A stretch of 42,834 nt of DNA from Armatimonadota bacterium (lineage in GTDB: Bacteria > Sysuimicrobiota > Sysuimicrobiia > Sysuimicrobiales > Humicultoraceae): assembly GCA_031459715.1 (NCBI GenBank), contig JAVKIA010000021.1, forward strand, positions 1 through 42,834, written 5' to 3'. Position numbers and translations under genes: made by a program. The notes below the pieces were generated by a model, which saw only the letters and a list, made by a program, of their open reading frames with translations, was not told the origin of the DNA and searched no databases. The stretch's first letter is position 1. The number at the start of each line of letters is the position of its first letter. This document shows, in pieces, positions 9,053 through 39,176 of this stretch.

Positions 9053-9505
9053 ATGGACGAATTAAGTGCACGGCCACAGCGCATCCGGCGCCGGAGGTTC
9101 CTCGACTACTCGTTCGGCGCTGCTCTGGCGGCACTGGCCGGGACTGTACTCTACCCGGTCATCAATTACCTGATCCCACCGAAGACCAAGGAGATCACCC
9201 ATCAGGCGGTGGTGGCGGGGAAAGCGGGTGAGCTCCCTTCCAACTCCGGGAAGATCTTCGCCTTCGAAGGGAGACCGGCCATCGTGCTGCGCACACCCGA
9301 TGGAGAGGTGCGGGCCTTCACCGCTGTGTGCACTCACCTGGCCTGCAACGTGCAGTACCGCCCGGACCTGCAGCACATCTGGTGCGCCTGCCACGACGGC
9401 CACTACGACCTCCACGGGCAAGTCCTCTCCGGCCCGCCGCCCCGGCCGCTGGTGGAATATAAGGTCACCCTCAAAGGAGAAGACATCATCGTCAGCAGAA
9501 CCTAG
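9053..9505 (+). CDS. Rieske [2Fe-2S] protein of a cytochrome bc-type complex
   Basis: A 150-residue protein. It has a twin-arginine-like start (RRRRFLDYSFGAALAAL) that doubles as a membrane anchor. A Rieske domain follows with both cluster-binding boxes, CTHLAC and CACHDGHYD (two Cys, two His). It transfers electrons from quinol to the c-type cytochrome partner. The ATG at 9053 is preferred over a TTG at 9035 because GGGAAGGGAG lies at the right distance. The gene is followed after 2 bases by cytochrome b. The second box has CACHDG rather than the commoner CPCHGS. Confidence 0.93.
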   Translation: MDELSARPQRIRRRRFLDYSFGAALAALAGTVLYPVINYLIPPKTKEITHQAVVAGKAGELPSNSGKIFAFEGRPAIVLRTPDGEVRAFTAVCTHLACNVQYRPDLQHIWCACHDGHYDLHGQVLSGPPPRPLVEYKVTLKGEDIIVSRT

Positions 9506-9507
9506 CC

Positions 9508-10563
9508 ATGGGCGTGCGGGACTGGCTGAACGAACGCCTGCGGTACGAAGCTGCCCAGGCGTTCCTGGAGAAGAAGGCTGTTCCCGTCCACCGCTACGCT
9601 GTCACCTACTACACGGGGGGTGTCACCCTTTTCTTCTTCGTGGTCCAGGTGCTCACCGGGTTGCTCCTGCTCATGTACTACCGGCCCGCCTCCGACGCTG
9701 CCTTCGAGAGCGTGCGCCTGATCATCGCCAAGGTGCGTTTCGGCTGGCTCGTCCGCAATATCCACGTCTGGTCCGCCAACGCTATGGTGGGAGCGGCAGT
9801 GCTCCACCTGGCAGCCACTTTCTTCAGCCGCGCCTACCGGAAGCCGAGGGAACTGACCTGGGTCTCCGGTGTCCTCCTCCTGGGCGTTACCCTGGCGTTT
9901 GCCTTCACCGGGTACCTGTTGCCGTGGAACACCCTGGCTTACTTTGCCACGAAGGTGGGGACGGAGATCGCGGGTGACGTCCCGGTCATCGGCCGGGCGC
10001 TCATGGTCCTGCTGCGGGGGGGCGAGGACATCACCGCAGCCACCCTCATTCGCTTCTTCGGCATCCACGTGGCCATCCTGCCCGCGCTGGCCACAGTGCT
10101 GCTCGGCCTGCACCTGACGCTGGTGCAGATACACGGGATGAGCCGGCCGATCTCCGTGCGCGTGCGTGGCGAGGAGCGCTTCTACCCCGAGTTCATGCTG
10201 CGAGACTTCATCGTCTGGGTGGTGCTGCTGGGCGGCCTGGCTGTGGTGGCCACGCTGTGGCCCTGGCCACTGGGGGAGAAGGCGGACCCGCTGGCCCCGG
10301 CTCCTGCGGGTCTGCGGCCGGAGTGGTACTTCCTGTTCATGTACCAGACCCTGCGCATGATCCCCGGCCGCATCGCCGGCCTGGAGGGCGAGGCTGTGGG
10401 CGTCACCCTCTTCGCGCTGACCGGCCTCGCGCTGCTGCTGGTCCCCTTCCTCGACTGCTGGGCGCAGCGGGAGCACAAACACCCGCTGTTCCCCGCCCTG
10501 GGGGCGGCCGCCTTCGCCTTCGTCCTGCTGATGACGGCGCTGGCCCTGGTCGCCGGGATGTGA
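9508..10563 (+). CDS. cytochrome b, b6-type heme spacing with fused subunit IV-like half
   Basis: A 351-residue membrane protein joining the four-helix heme half and the quinol-site half in one chain. Heme ligands are His86/His100 and His187/His202. The 15-residue step in the second pair is the b6 pattern, not the mitochondrial one. The quinol-site motif PEWY is at 271-274. The cysteine that attaches heme c(n) in b6-type proteins falls at position 35, which is tyrosine here, so a covalently bound third heme is not expected. It works with the Rieske protein upstream and the multiheme cytochrome 5 bases downstream. It oxidises quinol and pumps protons by the Q cycle; this follows from the family. 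Confidence 0.95.
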   Translation: MGVRDWLNERLRYEAAQAFLEKKAVPVHRYAVTYYTGGVTLFFFVVQVLTGLLLLMYYRPASDAAFESVRLIIAKVRFGWLVRNIHVWSANAMVGAAVLHLAATFFSRAYRKPRELTWVSGVLLLGVTLAFAFTGYLLPWNTLAYFATKVGTEIAGDVPVIGRALMVLLRGGEDITAATLIRFFGIHVAILPALATVLLGLHLTLVQIHGMSRPISVRVRGEERFYPEFMLRDFIVWVVLLGGLAVVATLWPWPLGEKADPLAPAPAGLRPEWYFLFMYQTLRMIPGRIAGLEGEAVGVTLFALTGLALLLVPFLDCWAQREHKHPLFPALGAAAFAFVLLMTALALVAGM

Positions 10564-10567
10564 GGCT

Positions 10568-11854
10568 ATGAGGCCAGGGGCGCTCCTGCGCGTCCTCCTG
10601 GTGGCCACAGCCGGGCTCGGCATCTGGGCAGGATGGGCGCTGCTGCCCGGCTCATCGGTCCAGGCGGCCCAGACGGCTGACTCCTGCACCAACTGTCATC
10701 AGAACCTCGCCGGGAAGCTGGCGGCCCCAGCGGAGGGGATGAGCGAAGACGTGCACGGTCGTGCGGAACTGCGCTGCGCGGGGTGCCATGGGGGCGACCC
10801 CGCCCGCAGCGGCATGGACGCCCACGACCCCGCCGCCGGATTCAGGGGCGTGCCCCAGCGACGGCAGGTTCCGCAGCAGTGCGCGCGCTGCCATGAGGAT
10901 CCGACATTCATGCGGCGCTTCAATCCTTCGCTGCCCACCGACCAGTTCGCCCGCTACCTGACCAGCGAACACGGGAAGCACCTGGCCGCAGGCGACGGCA
11001 ACGTGGCTGTGTGCACCTCCTGCCACGGCGTCCACCCGGTGCGTGCCGTGAGCGATGCGCGCTCCCCTGTCTTCCCCACCAACGTGCCCAGTACATGCGC
11101 CCGCTGCCACGCCGACGTTGCCCTGATGAAGCCCTATGGAATCCCCACCAGCCAGTTCGCCGAGTACCGGGAAAGCGTGCACGGGCAGGCACTACTTCGG
11201 CGGGGCAACCGCCAGTCCCCGGCGTGCAACGACTGTCACGGCAACCACGGTGCCGCACCCCCAGGCGTTGAGTCCGTGGCCAACGTCTGTGCCCAGTGCC
11301 ACCGCGCCACGCGGGACCTTTTCGTGCGCAGCCCGCACAAGAGGGCGTTTGACACCCTGGGGATGGCGGAGTGCACCGTCTGCCACGGGACACACAACAT
11401 CTCCTTTCCCACGGACGTGATGCTGGGTCAGGAGCAGGGGTCGGTGTGCCTGCGGTGCCACCCCGGCGGAACCGCAGGCCTGCGGGCTGCTGCAGAGATG
11501 CGGGCGACCCTGGAAGAAGTGAAGGCCGCCATCGCGCAGGCTGAGGCCATCCTGAAACGCGCGGCCGGCGCCGGGATGGACGTGGGCGACGCCAGGATCG
11601 ACCTGGACGAGGCCACGTCGCAGCTGATCCGGGCCCGGGCCGTGACCCACACCACAAGCCCGCCCGAGGTGCGGCGGGTGACTGCGGTCGGCCTCACTGC
11701 CGCCGGCCGGGCACGCGCCGTGGGCGAAGCGGCCCTGGCCGAGATGGGATTCCGCCGCCGCGGCCTCGGCGTCTCTGTGGCCATCATCGCCTTTGTGGCA
11801 ATCCTGCTCTGGCTGAAGCTGCGGGAGCTGAAGCATACGCCAGCATCCAGGTGA
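10568..11854 (+). CDS. nonaheme c-type cytochrome with C-terminal membrane anchor
   Basis: A 428-residue protein with a signal peptide (about 1-34) and nine CXXCH motifs: CTNCH, CAGCH, CARCH, CTSCH, CARCH, CNDCH, CAQCH, CTVCH and CLRCH. A helical region of about 100 residues without hemes and a transmembrane helix close to the C-terminus (LGVSVAIIAFVAILLWLKL) follow. It is the third cistron of the Rieske/cytochrome b operon. By position it takes the place of cytochrome c1 or f and would accept electrons from the Rieske centre. It then passes them to a soluble carrier or terminal enzyme. Extra histidines between motifs suggest bis-His hemes. It depends on the adjacent ccm system for heme attachment. 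Confidence 0.92.
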   Translation: MRPGALLRVLLVATAGLGIWAGWALLPGSSVQAAQTADSCTNCHQNLAGKLAAPAEGMSEDVHGRAELRCAGCHGGDPARSGMDAHDPAAGFRGVPQRRQVPQQCARCHEDPTFMRRFNPSLPTDQFARYLTSEHGKHLAAGDGNVAVCTSCHGVHPVRAVSDARSPVFPTNVPSTCARCHADVALMKPYGIPTSQFAEYRESVHGQALLRRGNRQSPACNDCHGNHGAAPPGVESVANVCAQCHRATRDLFVRSPHKRAFDTLGMAECTVCHGTHNISFPTDVMLGQEQGSVCLRCHPGGTAGLRAAAEMRATLEEVKAAIAQAEAILKRAAGAGMDVGDARIDLDEATSQLIRARAVTHTTSPPEVRRVTAVGLTAAGRARAVGEAALAEMGFRRRGLGVSVAIIAFVAILLWLKLRELKHTPASR

Positions 11855-11976: not shown

Positions 11977-14178
11977 ATGAGCCTACGCAGGCGGATCATG
12001 CTGCTGGTGACGGTCGGGCTGATCGCCGCCACCGCCCCGCTGGGGGTAATGGGTATCGGCATGCTCCGCGCATCCACCGACCGTATCCTGGAGGAGCGGC
12101 TGGCCGTGGCCAGGTCCACGGCCGGCCACCTGGACGACCGCCTCACCCAGGAGCTGCGGCAGCTCCACCAGCTTGGCCGCCGGGTTGGCCCCCTGCTGGC
12201 TGACGGGGATCTGGACGGAGTGCGCCGCGTCCTCACCTCCGCTGCGCCCGCCCTGGACCTCTTCTCCGGTGCGGTGTTCCTGGCTGACCGCCGAGGCGCG
12301 CTTGCCGCCAGTGAGCCCCCGGGTAGACAATGGGCGGCGATGCCGGCGGCTGCGCCAGGCGCGGTGCGGCAGGCGCTGGAGCGTGGCCGTCCCGGGATCA
12401 GCGGGCCGGTGCGGACTGCGGAGGGAACCCCTGCGGTCATCGTCACCATCCCCGTCCTCGGGCCGTCCGGCACTGCTGCCGGCGTGATCGGAGGGCTCAT
12501 CCTCCTCCCCAGCCCCGTGCTGCAGGCGTTTGTCGAGAGGTTGGCGGTGGGCGCGACCGGGCACGCTGCAGTGGTCAGCGAGGACGGGGTGGTCCTGGCC
12601 AGCAGCGAACCTGAGGAGATATCCACCCGGGGCGAGCACCCCGAGTTCGTCTCCCGTATGATCTCCACACGCCGTGCCGGAGTAAGCTTGGCCGAGGGGA
12701 CGGATCCGGCGGGACGGCCGGAGCGCCACGTCATGGCTTTCGCCCCGCTTTCCGCAGCTCCCTGGGGCCTCATGGTGGGCCAGGACGAGGCGGAGACCTA
12801 CGGCCCCATCCGCCGGCTGCGCGACCGGGTGGTCCTCTTCGGCCTGGCCGTGCTCGCCGCCGCCCTCCTCTTTGCCTGGCTGGACACGGGAGCGGTGGCT
12901 TCCCCCCTGCGGGCGCTGAAGGAGGCGGCGGAGCAGATCGCCGGCGGGGACCTGGGGCGGGAGATCGCGGTGCGTCGCAGTGACGAGGTAGGGGCGCTGG
13001 CGGACAGCTTCGAGACCATGCGGCAGCGGTTGCTCGCTTCCCTGGAGGAGATCCGCCGCCGGGCCCGCGCCTCACAGTCCCTCTACGAGACCGGGAAGGA
13101 CGTGCTCAGCCTGCAGGACCGGGAGGCTGTTTTGCGGTCGATCGTACACCGGGCCGCCGCGTTGCTGGCGGTGGACGTGGCGGTCCTCTGCCTGGCGGAC
13201 GAGGGGGGAGCGGCGCGCGTCGGCGCCCTGGCCGGTCCCGCGGACGCCACCTCTGCAGGGCCGCACGCGTTTCCCCTGCACGAAGGAGAGGGAGGGACGG
13301 CCTGCCTGAACTGCACCGTGCTGAAACCCCGCTACCGGGCCTCCCACCTGGCAGCACCCCTGACCATCGGCGGGCGCGCGGTGGGCGCCCTGTGCGTTGG
13401 GGCGCGGGGAGTTCGGGAGTTCTCGCTGGAGGAGCGGGAGCTGCTCTCCGGGCTGGCCAACCTGGCGGCGATTGCCGTGGAGAACGCCCGTCTCCAGGAG
13501 CGGGTGCAGTCCCTGGCGGTGCTGGAGGAGCGGGAGCGCATCGCCCGGGAGATCCACGACAGCGTGGGTCAGGTGCTGGGCTACGTCAACACCAAGGCGC
13601 AGGCAGTGAAGGTCCTGCTGGAAGCGGGGAGGAGTACAGAGGCGCAGGCCCAGCTGGCGCAGCTGGAGCAGGCGGCGCGGGAGGTCTACGCCGACCTGCG
13701 CGAGGCCATCCTGGGGCTGCGCGCAGACACAGGGCCACAGCGGCGACTTGTCCCGGTGTTGCGCGAATACGTGCGGCGGTACAGCGAGCTGAGCGGCGTG
13801 CAGACAGAGCTGGTCACCGAAGGTGATCCGGCCCTCTACGTCTTCAGCCCCACCACAGAACTCCACCTCCTGCGGATCATCCAGGAGGCTCTGACCAACG
13901 TGCGCAAGCACGCCCTGGCGCGACGGGCCTGGGTGCGGTTTGCCCACGAGGACGGTGTGCTTGTGGTCAGCGTCCGCGACGACGGCCAGGGGTTCGATCC
14001 TGCGCGGGTGCCCCCGGGCGCCTGGCCGCGTTTCGGCCTGCAGACCATGCGCGAGCGGGCGGAGGCCATTGGAGGCGTATTTACCGTCCGCTCTGCAGGC
14101 GGATCGGGCACAGAGGTTGTAGTGCGGCTGCCGCTATCACGGGGGAGGGTGGGTGATGCGAGTCCTGCTGGCCGATGA
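11977..14178 (+). CDS. membrane sensor histidine kinase (HAMP-GAF-HisKA_3-HATPase, NarX/NreB class)
   Basis: A 733-residue kinase. It has an N-terminal transmembrane helix (about 9-30), a periplasmic Cache-like sensor (about 31-284) and a second helix (about 287-305). Then come HAMP (about 305-360), GAF (about 370-508), a HisKA_3 dimer domain with the phospho-acceptor in IAREIHDSVGQ (His about 527), and an HATPase with the N box in LTNVRKHA and G boxes in DDGQGFD and FGLQTMRERA. The GAF domain contains a CLNC pair near residue 442 that could be a redox or metal site (inference). The ATG at 11977 is preferred over a GTG at 11968 because GAAGG sits 8 bases upstream. It overlaps the response regulator by 23 bases. 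A decayed relative lies at 32.6 kb. Its neighbours suggest it senses a respiratory condition. Confidence 0.93.
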   Translation: MSLRRRIMLLVTVGLIAATAPLGVMGIGMLRASTDRILEERLAVARSTAGHLDDRLTQELRQLHQLGRRVGPLLADGDLDGVRRVLTSAAPALDLFSGAVFLADRRGALAASEPPGRQWAAMPAAAPGAVRQALERGRPGISGPVRTAEGTPAVIVTIPVLGPSGTAAGVIGGLILLPSPVLQAFVERLAVGATGHAAVVSEDGVVLASSEPEEISTRGEHPEFVSRMISTRRAGVSLAEGTDPAGRPERHVMAFAPLSAAPWGLMVGQDEAETYGPIRRLRDRVVLFGLAVLAAALLFAWLDTGAVASPLRALKEAAEQIAGGDLGREIAVRRSDEVGALADSFETMRQRLLASLEEIRRRARASQSLYETGKDVLSLQDREAVLRSIVHRAAALLAVDVAVLCLADEGGAARVGALAGPADATSAGPHAFPLHEGEGGTACLNCTVLKPRYRASHLAAPLTIGGRAVGALCVGARGVREFSLEERELLSGLANLAAIAVENARLQERVQSLAVLEERERIAREIHDSVGQVLGYVNTKAQAVKVLLEAGRSTEAQAQLAQLEQAAREVYADLREAILGLRADTGPQRRLVPVLREYVRRYSELSGVQTELVTEGDPALYVFSPTTELHLLRIIQEALTNVRKHALARRAWVRFAHEDGVLVVSVRDDGQGFDPARVPPGAWPRFGLQTMRERAEAIGGVFTVRSAGGSGTEVVVRLPLSRGRVGDASPAGR

Positions 14179-14830
14179 TCATCCCCTCTTCCGGGACGGC
14201 GTTCGCAGTCTGCTCCAGGCGCGCGGTGTGGAGGTGGTGGGGGAGGCCGGTGACGGGGAGGAGGCGGTGGAGGCGGCGCTGCGGCTGCGGCCGGATGTTA
14301 TCCTGATGGACATCTCCATGCCCAGGATGAACGGGCTGGAGGCCACCCGTGTGATCAAGGCGCGCCTGCCCCAGGTGAAGATCGTCATGCTTACCGTCTC
14401 CGACGAGGACCGCACCCTCTTCGAGGCGGTAAAGAGCGGCGCACAGGGCTACCTGCTCAAGAACCTGCAGGCCGATGAGTTCTTCGACCTGCTCTCTGGT
14501 CTGGAGCGGGGCGAGGCCCCCATCTCCAGAAGCCTGGCCGGTCGGATCCTTGAAGAGTTCGCCCGGCGCCGCGGGGGCCGGCCGCAGGAGGAAGCGGAGG
14601 AACTGACCGAGCGCGAGCGCGAGGTCCTCCGGGCGGTGAGCGGCGGCGCTTCCAACCGGGAGGTGGCGGCCGCCCTGCACATCTCGGAGAATACCGTGAA
14701 GTTCCACATGAAGAACATTCTGGATAAGCTCCACCTGCGCAACCGTGCCGAGGTGGTGGCCTACGCAGCCCGTCGGGGGTGGCTGCCCCCAGAGACGACC
14801 TCCGGCGGGGAGGGCAGGGAGAGCGGCTAG
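14156..14830 (+). CDS. NarL/FixJ-type response regulator
   Basis: A 224-residue regulator. The receiver domain has Asp7/Asp8 and the phospho-acceptor Asp52 ([12 protein letters not shown]). The conserved lysine is in YLLKNLQ. The LuxR-type helix-turn-helix covers residues about 152-212 ([15 protein letters not shown], then [15 protein letters not shown]). Its start lies inside the kinase gene, so the pair is co-translated. The ATG at 14156 is chosen over the GTG at 14153. Targets cannot be read from the sequence. The flanking respiratory operons and the palindrome at 11906 are candidates. Confidence 0.95.
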
Positions 14831-16777: not shown

Positions 16778-17233
16778 ATGGAACGGCGCGCCGACGGCAT
16801 CGTCTACTACGCTCTGGTCATTGCGCTTGCCGCTCTGGTGCTCAGCATCGTGGCCTACACCGCGCGGGCGCGGCCGGCGGGAGCTCCGGTGTTGCGGACC
16901 CCGGCGACCATGAAGCTCTCCATGGTGGTGGCCACCTTCAGCGGCCAGGGGGTGGCCGCACACCGCTGGTATCCCACCATGCTGGTGGTGCGGCAGGGGG
17001 ACACGGTGGACCTGGCGCTGGGCAACCCTGATCGGGTCAACCACGAGTTCGCCATCCCTGACCTCAACCTGCGCTCCGGCAAGCTGGCGCCCGGCGGCAC
17101 CGACCGGCTGCGCTTCGTCGCCGACCGCGCCGGTGTCTACGTCTTTCAGTGCGCCCTGCCCCATGACCCAGCGCGCGGCGACTGCACGCCAGACCACGAG
17201 CTGATGCGCGGCTACCTGGTCGTCACGGAGTGA
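16778..17233 (+). CDS. membrane-anchored cupredoxin (first of the array)
   Basis: A 151-residue protein with an N-terminal transmembrane anchor (about 8-29) and a cupredoxin beta sandwich. Candidate copper ligands are His89 (NHEFAI), Cys125 (FQC), His140 and Met143 (DHELM), the His-Cys-His-Met set of type 1 copper sites. The ligand loop is long and holds a second cysteine, Cys136. The ATG at 16778 is chosen over one at 16763; a GGGGGCGAG precedes it. It heads a six-gene operon running into a ferredoxin/NrfD pair. A periplasmic one-electron carrier is the likely role. Confidence 0.8.
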   Translation: MERRADGIVYYALVIALAALVLSIVAYTARARPAGAPVLRTPATMKLSMVVATFSGQGVAAHRWYPTMLVVRQGDTVDLALGNPDRVNHEFAIPDLNLRSGKLAPGGTDRLRFVADRAGVYVFQCALPHDPARGDCTPDHELMRGYLVVTE

Positions 17234-17245
17234 GGGGGCGGAGAG

Positions 17246-17737
17246 GTGGACGGGCCCCGATCAGCGTTGCGCTCGCTCCTGGCTGGCCTCGCCCTGGTTG
17301 TGGCGCTGGTGGCGGTGGCGCTCAGCTTGCTGGCGCTGACCACACCGGGGACCCCAGCGCGTTCTCCCGCTGCGGAGGATCCGGCAACTATCGACCTCTC
17401 CCTGCTCATCACCGGGCGGGGGGCGATCGGGGGCCCCGCGGAGAGTCACCTCTACGATCCGCAGTTCCTGGTGGCCCGCAAGGGGGACAGGGTGCGGCTG
17501 CACGTGACCAATGGGTCCCACTTCCGGCACGGCATCGAGATCGTCGGCTATGGGGTGAAAACCCGTCCCCTCACCGGCGGGCCGCAGGCGGCGGAGACGC
17601 TGACTTTCGTCGCCAGCAGGAGCGGGATTTACGAATACCGCTGCTACCTGCCGTACGACCCGGCAACCGCTACATGTTCGCCCGACCACAGCCAGATGGT
17701 GGGCCATCTCGTTGTCCTGGACCCGGAGGTGCGGTGA
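17246..17737 (+). CDS. membrane-anchored cupredoxin (second)
   Basis: A 163-residue protein with an N-terminal helix (about 10-32) and a cupredoxin fold. Probable ligands are His95 (RHGIEI), Cys133, His148 and Met151 in a loop that also contains Cys144 (ATCSPDHSQM). It is clearly a paralogue of the gene 12 bases upstream. The GTG start at 17246 is preceded by GGGGGCGGAGA. Like its neighbours it would shuttle electrons outside the membrane. Confidence 0.78.
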   Translation: MDGPRSALRSLLAGLALVVALVAVALSLLALTTPGTPARSPAAEDPATIDLSLLITGRGAIGGPAESHLYDPQFLVARKGDRVRLHVTNGSHFRHGIEIVGYGVKTRPLTGGPQAAETLTFVASRSGIYEYRCYLPYDPATATCSPDHSQMVGHLVVLDPEVR

Positions 17738-17771
17738 ACGCTCTGCCAACTCTCTCATGGAGGTGAGGTAG

Positions 17772-18236
17772 ATGAGGATGTATGTGCGTGTCTTCGGCCT
17801 GACCGCGCTGCTGGTGTTCTTCAGCCTGGGCGGCGCGGCGGGTGCAGCCAAGCAGAAAGTCACCATCGCGCTGAGCGAGATGAAGTTCACTCCCGGCAAG
17901 ATCACCGTGCAGGCGGGCAATCCTGTGGAGTTCAAGCTGGTGAACAGGGGGAAGGTGAAGCACGAGTTCATGGTGTATAAGCCGCCGAAGGCCGGTTTGG
18001 CGGGCGACGAGCTTGAGGAGTGGGCTGAAGAGAATTCCTACTTCAAAGGCATTGAGGTCAAGGTCGAGGGCGGCGGCATCGAGGTGGTCGGCACCAACAT
18101 CTTCGAGGTGGAGATCGATGCCGGCAAGTCCGCGGAGGTGTCCTTCACCCCCAAGCAGACCGGGACCTTCGAGATCGGTTGCCACATCGAAGGGCACTAC
18201 GAGAAGGGCATGAAGGGCACGTTGGTGGTCAGGTAG
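17772..18236 (+). CDS. secreted cupredoxin, type 1 copper (third)
   Basis: A 154-residue protein with a cleavable signal peptide (about 1-26) and a plastocyanin/azurin-like fold. Ligands are His64 (KHEFMVY), Cys137, His142 and Met147 in the tight loop GCHIEGHYEKGM, a standard type 1 arrangement. An insertion of about 40 residues (ELEEWAEENSYFKGIEVKVEG is its centre, about 80-100) separates the first ligand from the rest. GGAGGTGAGG lies just upstream of the ATG. Unlike the others it looks soluble. The C-terminal half of a second copy survives at 38.9-39.2 kb. Confidence 0.85.
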   Translation: MRMYVRVFGLTALLVFFSLGGAAGAAKQKVTIALSEMKFTPGKITVQAGNPVEFKLVNRGKVKHEFMVYKPPKAGLAGDELEEWAEENSYFKGIEVKVEGGGIEVVGTNIFEVEIDAGKSAEVSFTPKQTGTFEIGCHIEGHYEKGMKGTLVVR

Positions 18237-18246
18237 GGGTGGAGGT

Positions 18247-18699
18247 ATGGGTACGGACGGCAGGGGAACGGCAATTCTCGTTGCGACCTTCACGGTCGTG
18301 CTGCTGGCGCTGGGGGCGGGGTTTCTGGTGTTCCGCACCTACACCCCGCCCACCTCTGCCGCTCCATCCATCGTTCCGGAGGTGCGGCAGTTCGCCCTGC
18401 AGCTGCACGCCGAGGAGTTCGGTGACCAGACGCTACACCACTGGCTACCCGCCACCATCGTGGTCAACGTGGGCGACACGGTCATCCTCAGGGTGACCAA
18501 CACCGATCCGGAGGCCGCACACGGCTTTGGCCTGGCGGCCTTCAACATTGCACTGCCGCCCATCCCGCCCGGGGAGACGCAGACCATCCGCTTCCAGGCT
18601 ACCCGTCCCGGCGTCTTCCACTTTGGCTGCAGCGTGGAGGGCTGCGCGCCCGACCACGGCGACCAGACGGGTCAAATGGTCGTCCTGGGGCATCCGTAG
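18247..18699 (+). CDS. membrane-anchored cupredoxin with extended Cys loop (fourth)
   Basis: A 150-residue protein with an N-terminal helix (about 9-30). Possible metal ligands are His92 (AHGFGL), Cys128, Cys133, His137 and Met144 (GCSVEGCAPDHGDQTGQM). Two cysteines, a histidine and a methionine recall the CuA site of oxidase subunit II, but the spacing is longer, so a CuA centre is not proven. GGAGGT precedes the ATG. A frameshifted copy lies at 37.4-37.9 kb, also followed by a ferredoxin start. Confidence 0.8.
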   Translation: MGTDGRGTAILVATFTVVLLALGAGFLVFRTYTPPTSAAPSIVPEVRQFALQLHAEEFGDQTLHHWLPATIVVNVGDTVILRVTNTDPEAAHGFGLAAFNIALPPIPPGETQTIRFQATRPGVFHFGCSVEGCAPDHGDQTGQMVVLGHP

Positions 18700-18700
18700 C

Positions 18701-19645
18701 GTGGCCCTGACGCGGCGGTCCTTCCTCAAGATCCTGGCCGCGGGGACGGCGGTGATGGCCGGGCCACCGGCGGGAAACCGGCTGCTCCGTCGCCTCCGGC
18801 TGCGGCCGGCTGGAGGTGGGCTGCCGGCGCTTGCCGCCAGCCGGGAACCGGCGGGTCCCATCGTACGGCTGTTCGGCCTGCCCGCCGGGGACGGCGACCC
18901 GACTCTGGCCTACGCCGCCGAGCCCAACACGCGCACGGGGCCGGGTGAGGCCGGCCGTCGCTGGGTCATGGTCATCGACCTGGCCCGCTGCGACGGCTGC
19001 CGGGAATGCACGCGCGCCTGCACCGCCATGCACTTTGTCCCATCTGGCCAGGAATGGATCCGCGTCTACGAGATGCGCGACCACGCCACCGGCAACGCCT
19101 ACTGGCTGCCGAGGCCGTGCATGCAGTGCGACAACCCCCCATGTGTCAAGGTCTGTCCGGTGAGCGCTAGCTGGAAGCGGGAGGATGGCATCGTCATGCA
19201 GGACACTTCCCGCTGCATCGGCTGCCGCTTCTGCATCGCCGCCTGCCCCTACCAGGCCCGCGGCTTCAACTGGGTGCAGCCTCCAGAGTCCGAGGAGCAG
19301 CGCCGACAGCCCTACGACATGGAGTGGAACACCAGACATTTCAAGGGCACCACCGAAAAGTGCATCTTCTGTCCCGGGCTGGTCAAGGAGGGCAGGCTGC
19401 CGGCCTGCGTGTCCGCCTGCCCCATGGGGGCCCTCTACTTCGGGGACCAGGCCGAGGATGCCGTGACCAACTCGCAGGGCGAGACGGTCCGCTTCTCCCA
19501 GCTGGTACAGGAGAATGCGGGCTACCGCTTCCTGGAAGAGCTGGGCACGGAGCCGCGTGTCTACTACCTGCCCCCGCGGAAGCCTCTTTACCCCCCGCCG
19601 CCGTCTGAGCAGGAGCCGGCGGCACTGGGAGGAGGGCACCGCTGA
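18701..19645 (+). CDS. four-cluster ferredoxin subunit (NrfC/PsrB/DmsB type) with Tat signal
   Basis: A 314-residue protein. The N-terminus has a twin-arginine signal (LTRRSFLKILAAG). Four cysteine groups follow: 97/100/103/107, 140/143/148/152, 172/175/178/182 and 221/224/236/240. All sixteen ligands for four [4Fe-4S] clusters are therefore present. It passes electrons between the membrane quinone site of the NrfD-type partner and a catalytic or carrier protein. The GTG at 18701 is 2 bases after the previous stop and places the Tat motif correctly; longer readings overlap the cupredoxin. Its stop overlaps the NrfD start (TGATG). No catalytic molybdenum subunit is encoded next to it. Confidence 0.9.
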   Translation: MALTRRSFLKILAAGTAVMAGPPAGNRLLRRLRLRPAGGGLPALAASREPAGPIVRLFGLPAGDGDPTLAYAAEPNTRTGPGEAGRRWVMVIDLARCDGCRECTRACTAMHFVPSGQEWIRVYEMRDHATGNAYWLPRPCMQCDNPPCVKVCPVSASWKREDGIVMQDTSRCIGCRFCIAACPYQARGFNWVQPPESEEQRRQPYDMEWNTRHFKGTTEKCIFCPGLVKEGRLPACVSACPMGALYFGDQAEDAVTNSQGETVRFSQLVQENAGYRFLEELGTEPRVYYLPPRKPLYPPPPSEQEPAALGGGHR

Positions 19646-21228
19646 TGCCGCGCCGGCCGGATCCGTTCTCCCCGCGGGAGCGGGTGCTTCTGGCGTCACT
19701 CACCACAGCCGGACCGGGATTCTCCGCTCTGGTTGGGGCGCTGCTGGCCGTGATCGCCTGGGGCATCATCGCCTACACCGTGCAGCTGCGCTACGGATTG
19801 GGCGTCACCGGCCTGCGGGACAACTTCATGTGGGGCGTCTACATCACCAACTTCGTCTTCTTCATCGGCGTCAGCCACGTGGGCGCCCTGATGTCGGCCA
19901 TCCTGCGGATTACCGGGGCGGAGTGGCGCCGCCCCATCACCCGCATGGCCGAGGCCATCACCTTCGCCTCCCTGCTCATGGGCGCGCTGATGCCCTTTGT
20001 GGACATGGGCCGCCCGGATCGGATCCTCAACCTGCTGCTGCACGGGCGCCTGCAGTCGCCCGTGCTGTGGGACATTCTCTCCATCGGCACCTACCTCACG
20101 GGAAGCACGCTCTTCCTGTACGTGCCCATGATCCCCGACATCGCGCTCCTGCGTGACCGGTTCGCCGCGGGGCCCGCCTGGCGGCGCCGCCTGTACACCG
20201 TCCTGGCCGTGGGGTGGAAGGGGACCGAGGCGCAGCGTCACCACCTGGAGCGGATCATGGGCGTGATGGCCGTCCTCATCATCCCCATCGCCGTCTCCGT
20301 GCACACGGTGGTCTCCTGGATCTTCGGCATGACGCTGCGCGCCGGGTGGAACAGCACCATCTTTGGTCCCTACTTCGTCTCCGGCGCGCTGTTTTCCGGC
20401 GCGGCAGCGGTGGTCACGGCCATGGCAGCCTTCCGCTGGGCCTACCACCTGGAGGACTACATCACGGAGGTCCACTTCCGGCGGATGGGCTACCTGGTGA
20501 TTGCCCTGGGGATGATCTACGCCTACTTCACCTTCGCCGAGTACCTGACTCCGGCGTACAAGATGGCCGCCTCCGAGCGCGGCTACCTCAACGCGGTCTT
20601 CAGCGGCCAGTTCGCCCGCCTCTTCTGGTTCACCCAGGTCGGCGGCGTCCTGCTACCTGTGCTGCTGCTGACCGTGCCGCGGGTCGGCTGGGTGCCGCGC
20701 CTGACTCGCGTGCCAGTCCTCCGTCCGGTTCCTACGTTGGCGACGATAGCTACCTCGCTGCTGGTGCTGCTCCTGCTGCCGGCGGTCCTCCCGCGGACCG
20801 CGGCGTTCGGGGGGTTCGCCCTCATCCGGCAGCTCCCGGCCTGGATCATCGCGGCGCTGGGGGCGTGGCTCTTCCTGACGCTGCTGCCGCTGTTCCACCA
20901 GCGTCCCATCGCTGCGGCTGTGGTGGCCTCGCTGCTGGTCAACGTGGGGGCCTGGCTGAAGCGCTTTGTCATCATCGTGCCCACGCTGCAATACCCCTTC
21001 CTGCCCATCCAGCGCGCGCCGGCCGGCTGGGCCATCTACCGGCCCACCTGGGTGGAATGGTCAATCACCGCGGGCGCGCTGGCCGGATTCGTGCTGGTCT
21101 ATCTCCTGTTCAGCAAGGTCTTTCCCATCGTTTCGATCTGGGAGACCCGGGAGGAGGGTCACCGCCCCGCGCCGGCATCGTCTGCGGTGGGAACACATGG
21201 AGAAGCTGCCGATGCGCCGGTTCTGTAG
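19645..21228 (+). CDS. NrfD/PsrC-family quinone-interacting membrane subunit
   Basis: A 527-residue integral membrane protein with about ten helices. It has the family stretches NFMWGVYITNFVFFIGVSH and FASLLMGALMPFVDMGRPDR. NrfD-type subunits bind quinone and hand electrons to, or take them from, the ferredoxin subunit, without heme. Length is closer to ActC/HybB-type members than to the short NrfD of enterobacteria. Coupled to the ferredoxin gene by a one-base overlap. Confidence 0.92.
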   Translation: MPRRPDPFSPRERVLLASLTTAGPGFSALVGALLAVIAWGIIAYTVQLRYGLGVTGLRDNFMWGVYITNFVFFIGVSHVGALMSAILRITGAEWRRPITRMAEAITFASLLMGALMPFVDMGRPDRILNLLLHGRLQSPVLWDILSIGTYLTGSTLFLYVPMIPDIALLRDRFAAGPAWRRRLYTVLAVGWKGTEAQRHHLERIMGVMAVLIIPIAVSVHTVVSWIFGMTLRAGWNSTIFGPYFVSGALFSGAAAVVTAMAAFRWAYHLEDYITEVHFRRMGYLVIALGMIYAYFTFAEYLTPAYKMAASERGYLNAVFSGQFARLFWFTQVGGVLLPVLLLTVPRVGWVPRLTRVPVLRPVPTLATIATSLLVLLLLPAVLPRTAAFGGFALIRQLPAWIIAALGAWLFLTLLPLFHQRPIAAAVVASLLVNVGAWLKRFVIIVPTLQYPFLPIQRAPAGWAIYRPTWVEWSITAGALAGFVLVYLLFSKVFPIVSIWETREEGHRPAPASSAVGTHGEAADAPVL

Positions 21229-21754
21229 TCTTCTCGGCTGCGGCTTCCTTGCGGTCATGCTGCTGGCGCCACCGGCCGAGGGCGCAGAGCCTGCCCGCGT
21301 CCTGCTGCGGGCGCAGGCTGTTGCCGGCGGCGCGGTGCAGGTGACGGCGACGGTCGTAGACGCCCGCGGCGCGCCCGTGGCGCAGGCGCCCCTGGTCTTC
21401 AAGAGGCGCACGGCCTTCGGCTGGCTGACGGTGCTCGAGACCTCCAGTGGCAAGGACGGGACCGCGCAGATGACGCTCCCGGCGGGGAGAGGGCCCGGGG
21501 AGATTGCGGTCGAGGCGGGTGAAGAGGGGATCGTTCGCGCGGTCGTTGTGGTCGGGGAGAGGGAGGCGCCCCCGCCCGCCGTCCGACCGGGCCGTAACGT
21601 GCTACTTGGCCTGAGCCCGCAGCCGGGATTCATCAGTCCCTACCCCGTCCCCATGCAGGCGGTCCTCTTCGGCCTCATCCTGGGGGCCATCTGGTCGACC
21701 TACGGATACGTGGTCTGGCAGCTGCTGCGCATCCGGCGAGACCGGCAGCCCTGA
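21212..21754 (+). CDS. exported Ig-like protein with C-terminal membrane helix
   Basis: A 180-residue protein with a signal peptide (about 1-23). A beta-rich domain (about 28-115) resembles bacterial Ig-like or carboxypeptidase-regulatory folds (VTATVVDARGAPVAQAPLVF). A proline-rich linker and a C-terminal transmembrane helix (about 150-170) follow. The ATG at 21212 has GGAGAAG 6 bases upstream; an ATG at 21197 is the alternative. It overlaps the end of the NrfD gene and is probably an accessory that holds soluble carriers at the membrane, which is inference. Confidence 0.65.
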   Translation: MRRFCSLLGCGFLAVMLLAPPAEGAEPARVLLRAQAVAGGAVQVTATVVDARGAPVAQAPLVFKRRTAFGWLTVLETSSGKDGTAQMTLPAGRGPGEIAVEAGEEGIVRAVVVVGEREAPPPAVRPGRNVLLGLSPQPGFISPYPVPMQAVLFGLILGAIWSTYGYVVWQLLRIRRDRQP

Positions 21755-21783
21755 CACCTCTCAGCGCACACGAGCACCGGCTT

Positions 21784-21838
21784 CTTCAAAGGCCCTTAAG
21801 AAATCCTTAAACACCCGGCTGAGCAGGCGCGGTACATT
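21784..21838 (+). promoter_or_regulatory. 11-bp tandem-repeat promoter (three repeats) of the cupredoxin/CcdA operon
   Basis: Repeats begin at 21784 (CTTCAA), 21795 (CTTAAG) and 21806 (CTTAAA), exactly 11 bases apart. The last supplies a -35-like TTAAAC (21807-21812). Twenty bases later comes the hexamer TACATT (21833-21838). Same architecture as six other promoters in this window. Confidence 0.75.
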
Positions 21839-21870
21839 GGACGCGGCCGTATGCGGAATACGGCAGACCC

Positions 21871-22365
21871 ATGGGGTGGCCCGAGAAGGATCTCGTGGGC
21901 AAGAAGGTGCGCGGCCATAAGGCGAGTCGCCGGGAGCGCAGAGCAGCGCGCCGGAAGGGCAGGGTCATCTGGTTTTCCCTGGGGGCGCTGGCAGTGCTCA
22001 GTGCGGCCGGGTTCCTGGTGGCCTCTCCCTTCCGCCCCGGGCCGGCCCCCTCCGAACCGGGTGGCTTCATTCCGCAGGTGTACGTGGACATGGCCGGCTT
22101 CGAGCCGCGGGTGCTGACGGCACCGGCGGGGCGGGAGTTTCGGGTGCAGTTCATCAACCCGGACTCCCGCTTCCACACCGACGGAGGCGGGTGGCATCAG
22201 TTTCGCATCGGCGGGACGGACATTGACGTGCGCATCCCACCCAGTACCCGGCTGGTCGTCACGTTGCCGCCGCTGGCCGCCGGTACCTATGAGTTCTACT
22301 GTGACGTCTGCTGCGGCGGCAAGGAGAACCCGGCGATGCGCGGCATGCTGGAGGTCAGGGCTTGA
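21871..22365 (+). CDS. membrane-anchored cupredoxin with a C-x2-C-C ligand loop (fifth)
   Basis: A 164-residue protein with a very basic N-terminus (RRERRAARRKGR), a transmembrane helix (about 33-51) and a cupredoxin domain. Probable ligands are His109 (WHQFRI), Cys144, Cys147 and/or Cys148, and Met156 (YCDVCCGGKENPAM). The two-cysteine loop suggests a CuA-like or other non-type-1 site. The ATG at 21871 lacks a ribosome site; a GTG at 21895 preceded by AGAAGGA is a serious alternative. It is driven by the tandem-repeat promoter at 21784 and overlaps the next gene by four bases. Confidence 0.75.
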   Translation: MGWPEKDLVGKKVRGHKASRRERRAARRKGRVIWFSLGALAVLSAAGFLVASPFRPGPAPSEPGGFIPQVYVDMAGFEPRVLTAPAGREFRVQFINPDSRFHTDGGGWHQFRIGGTDIDVRIPPSTRLVVTLPPLAAGTYEFYCDVCCGGKENPAMRGMLEVRA

Positions 22366-23042
22366 GCCGCCTGAGCTTCCCCACGGTCATCGTTAGCGGT
22401 CTGCTTGACGGCCTCAATCCCTGTGCCTTCGGCGTCGTCCTCTCGCTGGTCGCCCTGCTCCTGGCCGGCATAGCCCTGGGCGAGGCTCGGCCGCGGCTGT
22501 GGCGCGTGGGCGGAGCGTACGTCGCCGGTATGTTTCTCACTTACCTGCTGCTCGGCCTGGGTGTGATTTCCGTGGTGGCTGTACTGACGCGGACGCACCT
22601 GCCGGTGCGGATCATGGGCCTGCTGGTGGTCATCCTCGGCCTGTGGATGCTGAAGGACGCCTTCCTCCCGGGGACAGGCTGGCGGCTGGAGATGCCCGCG
22701 GCCTTTCATGGGAGCGTGCGAAAGATGCTGGCGCAGACCACGCCTGTGGGACTGTTCGCCGCCGGGGGGCTGGTCGGGCTGTGTACAGTGCCCTGCAGCG
22801 GGGCCATCTACATGGGCGTACTGGCGCTGCTGGCCCGGCAGCCATTTCTGCCGCGCCTGGGCTACCTCCTCGCCTACAATGTCATGTTTGTCCTCCCGCT
22901 GCTGGCACTGCTGGTAGTGGTGGCGAGCCGGCGGACATTGAATCGGATTGCCCACTGGTACGTCCCGCGCAAGTCCCTGGCCAGGGCCGTCCTCGGGACT
23001 TTAACACTGATTCTGGGCTTCGTCGTGCTGGTGACAGCATGA
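22362..23042 (+). CDS. ccdA: CcdA/DsbD-like thiol-reducing membrane protein
   Basis: A 226-residue protein with six helices and the two redox cysteine sites of the CcdA family, Cys21 in GLNPCAFG and Cys141/Cys145 in GLCTVPCSG. CcdA carries reducing power from cytoplasmic thioredoxin across the membrane to periplasmic thiol proteins used in cytochrome c and copper-site assembly. The TTG start overlaps the cupredoxin stop. Pairing with a multi-cysteine cupredoxin suggests it keeps those cysteines or CcmH reduced. Confidence 0.88.
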   Translation: MSRLSFPTVIVSGLLDGLNPCAFGVVLSLVALLLAGIALGEARPRLWRVGGAYVAGMFLTYLLLGLGVISVVAVLTRTHLPVRIMGLLVVILGLWMLKDAFLPGTGWRLEMPAAFHGSVRKMLAQTTPVGLFAAGGLVGLCTVPCSGAIYMGVLALLARQPFLPRLGYLLAYNVMFVLPLLALLVVVASRRTLNRIAHWYVPRKSLARAVLGTLTLILGFVVLVTA

Positions 23043-37441: not shown

Positions 37442-37853
37442 ACGGCCTGCCGCTGGGGCTCCGCCTCGGTGGCGCGGGCCTCGTGTGGTCGGGACCGATC
37501 CACGCCCCCCGGGCGGCCGAGGAGCCGGCACCGGTGGTCCGCCAGTTCAGGGTTGCCATGATCATGCTGGGGGAAGGCGACCTCGAACAACACCGCTGGC
37601 TCCCCGGGACGATCGTGGTGAACCGGGGGGACACGGTCATCCTGCGCGTCACGAACGCTGACCAGGATGCAAGTCATGGATTCGCCATCGGGGGCTACGA
37701 CATCTTCGAGCCAACCATCCCCCGGGCGGACAGAAGACGTACCGCTTCGAGGCGAAGACGCCGGGGATCTTCCTGTTCTCCTGCGCGCTCCCAGGGTGCG
37801 CCGAGGACCACGCCGAGCAGGTAGGGCAGCTGGTGGCCCTGGGGGTACCGTAG
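37442..37853 (+). pseudogene. frameshifted cupredoxin, copy of the 18247-18699 gene
   Basis: Membrane anchor remnant, then VVRQFRVAMIMLGEGDLEQ, HRWLPGTIVVNRGDTVILRV and SHGFAIGGYDIFEPTIP in one frame. After the run of five C at 37719-37723 the frame is lost. One added C restores PGGQKTYRFEAKTPGIF and the ligand loop CALPGCAEDHAEQVGQL to a stop at 37851-37853. It is clearly a paralogue of the fourth cupredoxin. Like it, this copy is followed by the start of a Tat-signal ferredoxin gene. Confidence 0.8.
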
Positions 37854-37876
37854 GAGGCCGGGACGGCTGAGGAACG

Positions 37877-37990
37877 GTGGACTTTTCCCGACGGGGCTTC
37901 CTGAGGCTCGCGGCCGCGGCTGCCTGCGCGCTGGCGGGGTCGCTGGGGGGGCGCTGCGCTGGCCGGGCCGGTACGGCCGCCGCGCTGTGC
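37877..37990 (+). pseudogene. start of a Tat-signal ferredoxin gene, truncated
   Basis: A GTG opens MDFSRRGFLRLAAAAACALAG, a twin-arginine signal like the one at 18701. No ferredoxin cysteine groups follow. The frame runs into sequence that belongs to a kinase sensor in another frame (from about 37990, with YIADASTTGHLVHLDG). This is the cut end of a second copy of the 18701 gene. Confidence 0.65.
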
Positions 37991-38108: not shown

Positions 38109-39176
38109 TTGGACCGGGCGGCCTTCGTCACCGCCGTGGTGGCTAGCGTCTTCGTGACGCGGCGCATCCTGGCCATCATCCATCTCATGCGACAGGCCAG
38201 CGCCCGCATCGCCGGCGGCCAGTACAGCGAGCGCGTCCCTATCACCTCGGGCGATGAACTGGGCCAGCTGGCGACGCAGTTCAACCGGATGGCGGAGACT
38301 CTGGAGCGGGTAGAACAGGCCCGCCGCGACCTGATCGCCGACATTGCCCACGAACTGCGGACGCCCCTGGCCAGCATCGCCGGATACCTGGAGGCGATGA
38401 TGGACGGCGTCATCTGCCCGGAGCCTGAAACGCTGAACCGCGTCCGCCGGGATGCCGCCCGCCTGCAGCGCCTGGTGGACGACCTGCAGGAGCTCTCGCG
38501 CGTCGAAGCGCGTCAGTTGCCGCTGCAGCCGCGGCCCATCGACGTCCGCGAGCTCGTCGAGACGACCGCAGGGCGGATCCGTCCCCAGTTTGACGCCAAG
38601 GGGGTCGAGCTGCGGATCGCCACTGCCGCCGGGCTGCCGCGAGCCGTGGCCGACCCGGACCGGAGGGTGCAGGTGCTGACCAACCTCCTGGGAAATGCCC
38701 TGCAGTATACACCCACGGGCGGCAGGGTGGAGGTCCGAGCAGGTCCGGCACACGGCATGGTGACCATCGCCGTCGCGGACACCGGGATCGGGATCGCTCA
38801 GGAGCACCTCCCGCATGTGTTCGACCGATTCTACCGGGCGGACAGGTCCCGCACCCGCGCCAGTGGAGGCAGCGGCATCGGGCTGACCATCGTCAAGCAC
38901 CTGGTGGTCTACCAGAGGCCGAAGGCGGGCGCCACGGCCATGGACCTGCACGACTGGTCACGGGAACGGTCGTACTTCCTGGGGTTGGAGCCGAAGGTCG
39001 AAGGCAGCGTCACCGACGTGGAACGGAAGGGCAAAGACCCGGTTATGATCATGCTCGCAGCGGGGAAGAGCGCCACCATCAAGTTCATCCCGAAGAAGAC
39101 CGGCACATTCGAGATCGGCTGCTTCATGCCGGGGCACTACGAAGCGGGAATGAAAGCGGCCCTGGGCGTCCGCTGA
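38109..39176 (+). pseudogene. chimera: PhoR/BaeS-type kinase core joined in frame to the C-terminal half of a cupredoxin
   Basis: Residues about 1-265 are a kinase: end of a membrane helix (TRRILAIIHLM), HAMP, HisKA with the phospho-histidine in IADIAHELRTPLASI, and HATPase with the N box NLLGNALQYTP and G boxes DTGIGI and GSGIGLTIVKH. At 38901-38910 it changes without a frame break into VYQRPKAGATAMDLHDWSRE and ends with CFMPGHYEAGM. That end matches the second half of the cupredoxin at 17772. The kinase sensor and last G-box strand, and the cupredoxin's first ligand, are missing. The kinase belongs to the class that pairs with OmpR/PhoB regulators. A functional protein is unlikely. Confidence 0.82.

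Follow-up and report, generated by a model that had tools for sequence, protein, structure and literature searches.

A candidate quinol:cupredoxin oxidoreductase with four cupredoxin genes and a minimal NrfD/Fe-S core in the bacterial phylum CSP1-3

The stretch of DNA analyzed here (the window; 42,834 nucleotides, contig C21 [JAVKIA010000021.1] of a 2.76-Mb genome of the phylum CSP1-3) carried four cupredoxin genes, cup1 to cup4, directly followed by genes for an Fe-S protein, an NrfD-family membrane subunit, and a Big-domain protein. It is probable, judging from sequence, that these proteins form a minimal quinol:cupredoxin oxidoreductase, which would resemble alternative complex III (ACIII) and feed a heme-copper oxidase, or perhaps NosZ or NirK in genomes where these are present. 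Specifically, menaquinol would be oxidized at a quinone site on the outer face of NrfD, possibly with proton translocation, and four [4Fe-4S] clusters in the Fe-S protein, which is predicted to be exported by the twin-arginine translocation (Tat) system, would conduct the electrons onward. From there the electrons would move to the tethered, CuA-like cup4, cup1, and cup2 and to the type 1 cup3, and the cupredoxins would pass them to the oxidase or, where present, perhaps to NosZ or NirK. We infer copper binding and the order, direction, and acceptor of electron transfer from the genes themselves, their conserved order, and the conserved ligand and quinone/proton-path residues described below. 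The gradation along the copper chain that the original prediction suggested is a hypothetical element of this scheme.

The original prediction placed five cupredoxins between positions 16778 and 22365, each with a different metal-loop design. Five open reading frames with a cupredoxin fold were indeed found at these positions, as Pfam matches (cup1, cup3, cup4, and cup5) and the paralogy of cup2 to cup1 confirmed. The number of loop designs was four, however, since cup1 and cup2 shared the pattern C-x10-C-x3-H-x2-M. The genes cup1 to cup5, those for the Fe-S, NrfD, Big-domain, and CcdA-like proteins, and the NarX- and NarL-like genes are on the forward (+) strand. Based on its Pfam match (Cupredoxin_1, E = 1.4e-8), structural model, and residue conservation, cup1 (16778 to 17233) encodes a membrane-anchored cupredoxin with the putative ligands H89...C125-x10-C136-x3-H140-x2-M143. 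The product of cup2 (17246 to 17737) was assigned by paralogy (39% identity to cup1, E about 1e-26) and by a tree, and its own Cupredoxin_1 match (0.087) was under the cut-off. The cup3 protein (17772 to 18236) had the compact type 1 loop that had been predicted, an ordinary C-x4-H-x4-M, together with the cupredoxin fold and upstream His of type 1 blue copper proteins; its Pfam matches were Cupredoxin_1 (6.6e-15), Copper-bind (8.6e-7), and SoxE (2.6e-5). Finally, cup4 (18247 to 18699) encodes a membrane-anchored, CuA-like protein with the putative ligands H92...C128-x4-C133-x3-H137-x2-Q140 (Cupredoxin_1, 1.5e-6), as supported by orthologs and by profile matches in the PDB to the CuA domains of COX2 and NosZ (3e-17 to 6e-16). 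The structural models of cup1 and cup4 (mean pLDDT of 90 and 87, respectively) both started with a membrane helix, at residues 4 to 29 in cup1, and a similar helix was apparent in the cup2 sequence. Both models matched nitrosocyanin, NirK, and CuA domains, with nitrosocyanin as the top Foldseek match.

The putative copper ligands were strongly conserved. Among 14 relatives of cup1 and cup2 (two of them archaeal), the upstream His, both Cys residues, and the following His were invariant, and the Met was present in 13 and replaced by Gln in one. The axial Gln of cup4 was found in all seven orthologs, and two canonical CuA-like relatives had Met at this position. In each set, four of the five proposed ligands were invariant, for which the hypergeometric P value relative to the share of invariant columns was 7e-4 (cup1/cup2) or 2e-4 (cup4); this calculation ignores relatedness among the sequences. 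Comparison with G001, a same-genus relative of the window genome (record LDXQ01000050, "Armatimonadetes bacterium CSP1-3"), indicated purifying selection: the ratio of nonsynonymous to synonymous substitution rates (dN/dS) was 0.12 to 0.13 for cup1 and cup2, 0.20 for cup4, 0.31 for cup5, and 0.51 for cup3, for which dS was about 1.

The ligand set of CuA (His, Cys, Cys, His, Met) was therefore complete in cup1 and cup2, and cup4 had Gln instead of Met. The spacing differed from the C-x3-C-x3-H-x2-M of CuA, being C-x10-C in cup1 and cup2 and C-x4-C in cup4. The earlier description of the cup4 loop as resembling CuA without matching it thus stood with a correction, in that the last putative ligand of the loop is the Gln and a Met near the C terminus is not conserved. 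Ligand conservation and fold suggest that cup1, cup2, and cup4 are CuA-like proteins with unusual loops and putative copper sites. Unlike CuA of cytochrome oxidase subunit II and NosZ, these would be small, separate, anchored proteins. When a cup1/cup2 profile was run against 386 genomes (43 of the window's order and 343 outside it), all matches above 85 bits were cup1/cup2 or cup4 proteins of CSP1-3, and no full-strength match was found in the 343 outside genomes. Of about 15 weaker matches outside the order, the four that could be read (L238, L242, L243, and L248) lacked C-x10-C, with a canonical CuA-like loop in L242, and a fifth that was retrieved (L241) had no readable loop. The scan and the four readable matches indicate, without proving it, that the C-x10-C loop is rare outside CSP1-3.

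The three genes that follow cup4 are predicted to encode the quinol-oxidizing core. The first encodes a DsrO-like Fe-S protein (18701 to 19645; 314 amino acids) with a Tat motif (RRSFLK) and exactly 16 cysteines, all of which lie in four cubane motifs. The second (19645 to 21228) encodes a predicted quinol-binding, ActC-like member of the NrfD family (Pfam NrfD, 1.1e-23), and the third (21197 to 21754) encodes a Big-domain protein with a C-terminal membrane segment. When a profile built from ten sequences of NrfD was compared with the PDB, its only matches were ACIII subunits: ActC, with four sequences at 7e-79 to 1.3e-74, and ActF, with a weak match (1.5e-7). We compared NrfD with a published list of 23 functional residues of ActC (PMC8076601), and 18 of these quinone and proton-path residues were identical. 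In the quinone site, S164 and D169 were retained, D253 was replaced by Ile, and H139 was replaced by Asp, which is also found at this position in PsrC, DsrP, and Qrc (PMC8076601). The proton path retained 12 of 13 residues in the inner half-channel and four of six in the outer one, including the gate residue Arg395. The original prediction left open whether the cupredoxins feed or drain the membrane module. Two features, the Tat signal of the Fe-S protein and the ActC-type residues of NrfD, favor draining (quinol to copper) over feeding. In each of three distant NrfD matches (L045 in G027, L046 in G021, and L047 in G014), the matched sequence contained a single in-frame TGA.

The association of the four cupredoxin genes with the Fe-S/NrfD pair, which had also been predicted, was borne out by their spacing: the intergenic gaps from cup1 through cup4 to the Fe-S gene were 12, 34, 10, and 1 bp, and the Fe-S, NrfD, and Big genes overlapped. 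We then compared 43 genomes of the window's order, taken as the phylum CSP1-3, for which Sysuimicrobiota is a recent name (PMC11604079); the relatives were represented by contigs of metagenome-assembled genomes (MAGs), and their genes came from our own gene caller. A protein search identified close NrfD orthologs in eight of the 43 genomes (G000, G001, G004, G011, G014, G015, G020, and G033) and a more distant ortholog in a ninth module genome, G006. Full-length cup4 orthologs were found in exactly the eight genomes with a close NrfD. The order cup4-FeS-NrfD was conserved in all eight, with cup3 upstream and Big downstream; the module was split across two contigs in G014, and the Big gene of G015 was short. 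In G001, NrfD was present twice, and each copy was paired with a separate Fe-S protein. The cup1-cup2 pair was found in six genomes, five with the NrfD module and one (G007) in which no NrfD was found and the pair adjoined a TtrA-like molybdenum (Mo) enzyme. In a tree, cup1 and cup2 formed two groups (support 98/98), so their duplication predates the two sampled families. As had been proposed, the pair is thus not a recent redundant copy; it goes back to a single old duplication. The expectation that the array would stay with NrfD in relatives held for cup1 to cup4 by gene order in CSP1-3, and for a cup1/2-type protein in two archaeal loci, but not for cup5, which scattered, nor for the cup1-cup2 pair of G007.

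The same core was found in other phyla with different electron carriers. A scan of named genomes for the wider family yielded 79 loci, chiefly in Chloroflexi and Bacteroidota with a few in archaea and other groups, in which the FeS-NrfD-Big core recurred and the carrier changed. Many Chloroflexi loci had a monoheme c domain fused to Big, Bacteroidota had a separate monoheme c gene after Big, and an N-terminal cupredoxin domain on Big was found in one Chloroflexi MAG, two thaumarchaeal loci, and G006. The cup1/2-type proteins of the two archaeal loci were stand-alone. In a NrfD tree built by a quick method, with carrier labels called automatically from a range of a few kb and 28 of the rows left unlabeled, the copper label needed five changes (at least four of them forced by well-supported branches) and the heme-fused label needed four; a Mo-enzyme subgroup was also nested within the tree. 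Thus, it seems that the carrier, heme c or copper, was swapped repeatedly around one enzyme core. Since the carrier slot is held by cytochromes c in other phyla, the cupredoxins of CSP1-3 are suggested to be electron carriers. In a euryarchaeal locus (L207, 11251 to 12360), the protein after NrfD appeared by eye to have a DOMON- or dehydrogenase-cytochrome-like N-terminal domain before Big.

A link to a terminal enzyme was observed in G011, where coxB-A-D-C lay directly upstream of cup1-cup2-cup3-cup4-FeS-NrfD-Big, all on one strand; coxC and cup1 were separated by about 170 bp. A looser association was observed in a Chloroflexi module (L200), in which a cox cluster was about 5 kb away with an opposite-strand gene between. 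COX1-family genes were found in all nine module genomes but also in most other genomes, and four genomes of genus g2 without COX1 also lacked the module. The ACIII of Chloroflexus has been described as a reductant of the copper protein auracyanin, and the respiratory ACIII genes of this genus lie in an operon with cox (PMC9316378); in R. castenholzii, ActE hands electrons to auracyanin (PMC8552683). The Chloroflexus system thus provides a precedent for electron flow from quinol to a copper protein to oxidase.

Several points weigh against this proposal. The evidence for the acceptor consists of a single oxidase-linked operon, that of G011, and a second, looser case. In the cupredoxins with long loops, the site could contain mononuclear copper, zinc, or a disulfide instead of a CuA-type center. 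A set of Rieske, cytochrome b, and multiheme c genes beside ccm genes in the window (9053 to 11854), with orthologs that were also together in G011 (L054, 1177 to 3952), offers another possible route of quinol oxidation. Moreover, a role in denitrification could be indicated by the NarX- and NarL-like neighbors and by the similarity of cup1, cup2, and cup4 to NosZ, NirK, and nitrosocyanin. In a narrower version of the proposal, cup1, cup2, and cup4 would each be an independent dinuclear carrier of the CuA type with a so far undescribed loop (C-x10-C, or C-x4-C with an axial Gln). These carriers would take the place of cytochrome c, linking a minimal NrfD/Fe-S quinol dehydrogenase to a CuA oxidase, and the result would be a largely copper-carried respiratory chain in one operon; we regard this version as tentative and rather doubtful.

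The denitrification alternative keeps the quinol-to-copper module and makes NosZ or NirK its main outlet under NarXL-like control. We consider it unlikely. The window has genes for a NarX-like sensor kinase (11998 to 14178; dCache-HAMP-GAF-HisKA_3) and a NarL/LuxR-type response regulator (14153 to 14830), which were assigned by domains and synteny with the module, and NarXL-like genes adjoined the module in eight of nine genomes; the sensor, however, is of the dCache-GAF type and may not sense nitrate. The profiles of cup1, cup2, and cup4 were nearest to NosZ, NirK, CuA, and nitrosocyanin, but the sole operon link to a terminal enzyme was to an oxidase. NosZ or NirK was over the cut-off in six of nine module genomes and also in 11 of 34 module-free genomes, an excess that was weak by a rough estimate. 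No single acceptor was common to the module genomes, as G001 and G004 had NirK without NosZ and G000, G011, and G020 had NosZ without NirK. NosZ was rejected as an obligate partner because only four of its 12 occurrences (among 43 genomes) were among the nine module genomes, and NirK, with seven genomes over the cut-off that overlapped only partially with the module genomes, was likewise rejected. As a separate observation, three loci (L088, 5478 to 7902; L089, 4960 to 7326; L212, 18746 to 21525) had a polyferredoxin-like membrane protein gene between two CuA-like cupredoxin genes, with NosZ adjoining in L089, and are a candidate for another copper-linked electron route.

A role in copper trafficking, in which the cupredoxins would buffer copper or deliver it, for example, to CuA of the oxidase, is very unlikely. 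The top NCBIfam model for cup3 was CopI, but its score was well under the equivalog cut-off (66 versus 280 bits). The adjoining oxidase genes of G011 and the pairing of cup5 with a CcdA-like protein would fit such a role, but cup4 and cup1/cup2 have retained CuA-like ligand sets and co-occur with a quinol dehydrogenase, and cytochromes c take the same position in other phyla.

For electrons on high-potential copper, transfer to menaquinone would be expected to run uphill. This, the resemblance of NrfD to ActC (a quinol oxidizer), and the lack of linkage between the TtrA-like gene and the module in relatives make it highly improbable that electrons flow in reverse, from periplasmic oxidation through the cupredoxins and NrfD into the quinone pool, even though the cup1-cup2 pair of G007 adjoins a TtrA-like enzyme, the window has another 4.6 to 8 kb downstream of NrfD, and NXR-type genes have been reported in CSP1-3 (PMC11604079). 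The downstream TtrA/TtrB-like Mo enzyme was also rejected as a catalytic subunit of the module because it was unlinked in relatives, and it scored under the equivalog cut-off for TtrA of tetrathionate reductase (453 versus 1750 bits).

The proposed quinol:cupredoxin oxidoreductase was also compared with known systems. ACIII (ActABCDEF) is a quinol:cytochrome c/HiPIP/auracyanin oxidoreductase, and the module resembles it in having an ActC-like NrfD with most of the quinone and proton-path residues, an outer-face Fe-S protein, a position after aa3-type oxidase genes in one genome, and a putative copper-protein acceptor comparable to auracyanin. Unlike ACIII, the module has four cupredoxins in its operon. 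In ActB, a MopB-like domain is fused to the Fe-S domain, but here the Fe-S protein is separate and the unit has no MopB-type gene; in the window and its CSP1-3 relatives, the conserved unit had no gene for a pentaheme ActA or monoheme ActE; and there was one NrfD per unit, without an ActF-type second copy or an ActD-like gene in the gene lists. By gene content, the module is thus not a member of ACIII. DsrO and DsrP were the best NCBIfam names for the Fe-S protein and NrfD, but both scores were under the equivalog cut-offs (188 versus 200 bits and 96 versus 350 bits, respectively), and DsrM, DsrK, and DsrJ were absent from the unit, the part of the genome that was searched for them. By these scores and absences, the module is not a DsrMKJOP complex either. 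Membership in the nitrosocyanin family was rejected (TIGR03096, at most 27 bits versus a cut-off of 143), and presumably the ligand spacing of nitrosocyanin is not shared. The cup3 protein resembled the blue copper proteins rusticyanin and sulfocyanin in its C-x4-H-x4-M loop and its SoxE and Copper-bind matches, and it scored under the equivalog cut-offs for both.

Neither copper nor cupredoxin occurs as a word in the main text of a survey of NrfD-like complexes from 2021 (PMC8076601), and in searches of the literature for cupredoxins together with NrfD or ACIII, no description of a cup/FeS/NrfD/Big unit was found at the level of titles and abstracts. NrfD complexes are usually described via their catalytic or multiheme subunits; here, the NrfD/Fe-S core is stripped down and seems to have exchangeable one-electron outlets. 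If the proposal is correct, the module would be a simple system for studying how quinol dehydrogenases choose their carriers and a test case for CuA-type centers as small, separate carriers, and it would inform how members of an uncultured phylum respire.

The fifth cupredoxin gene, cup5 (21871 to 22365; Pfam, 5.4e-12), lies 116 bp after Big and outside the NrfD unit, and its product has the motif C-x2-CC-GGK-x2-P-x-M. It overlaps a gene (22362 to 23042) for a CcdA/DsbD-like membrane protein that had no Pfam hit and was recognized by its NPCAF and CTVPC motifs. Orthologs of cup5 were found in G003, G009, G015, G020, G027, G032, and on a second contig of G001, mostly with a CcdA-like gene after them. 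A five-member cupredoxin array was rejected because cup5 occurs without NrfD elsewhere and is about 100 kb away from the module in G020. Together, cup5 and the CcdA-like gene form a separate unit, whose role is more likely copper or thiol handling.

Two further stretches of the window contained cupredoxin-like sequences. A second cup4-like gene, split by a frameshift (37459 to 37850 and 37874 to 37950), still encodes C-x4-C-x3-H-x2-Q, and the beginning of a DsrO-like Tat signal (FSRRGFLRLAAA) comes after it; the stretch from 37459 to 37950 is apparently a remnant of a second cup4-FeS unit. In addition, a reading frame at 38109 to 39176 fuses a histidine kinase (HAMP, HisKA, and a truncated HATPase) with part of a cup3-like cupredoxin, namely its C-terminal half, and this frame is either a deletion chimera or an assembly join.

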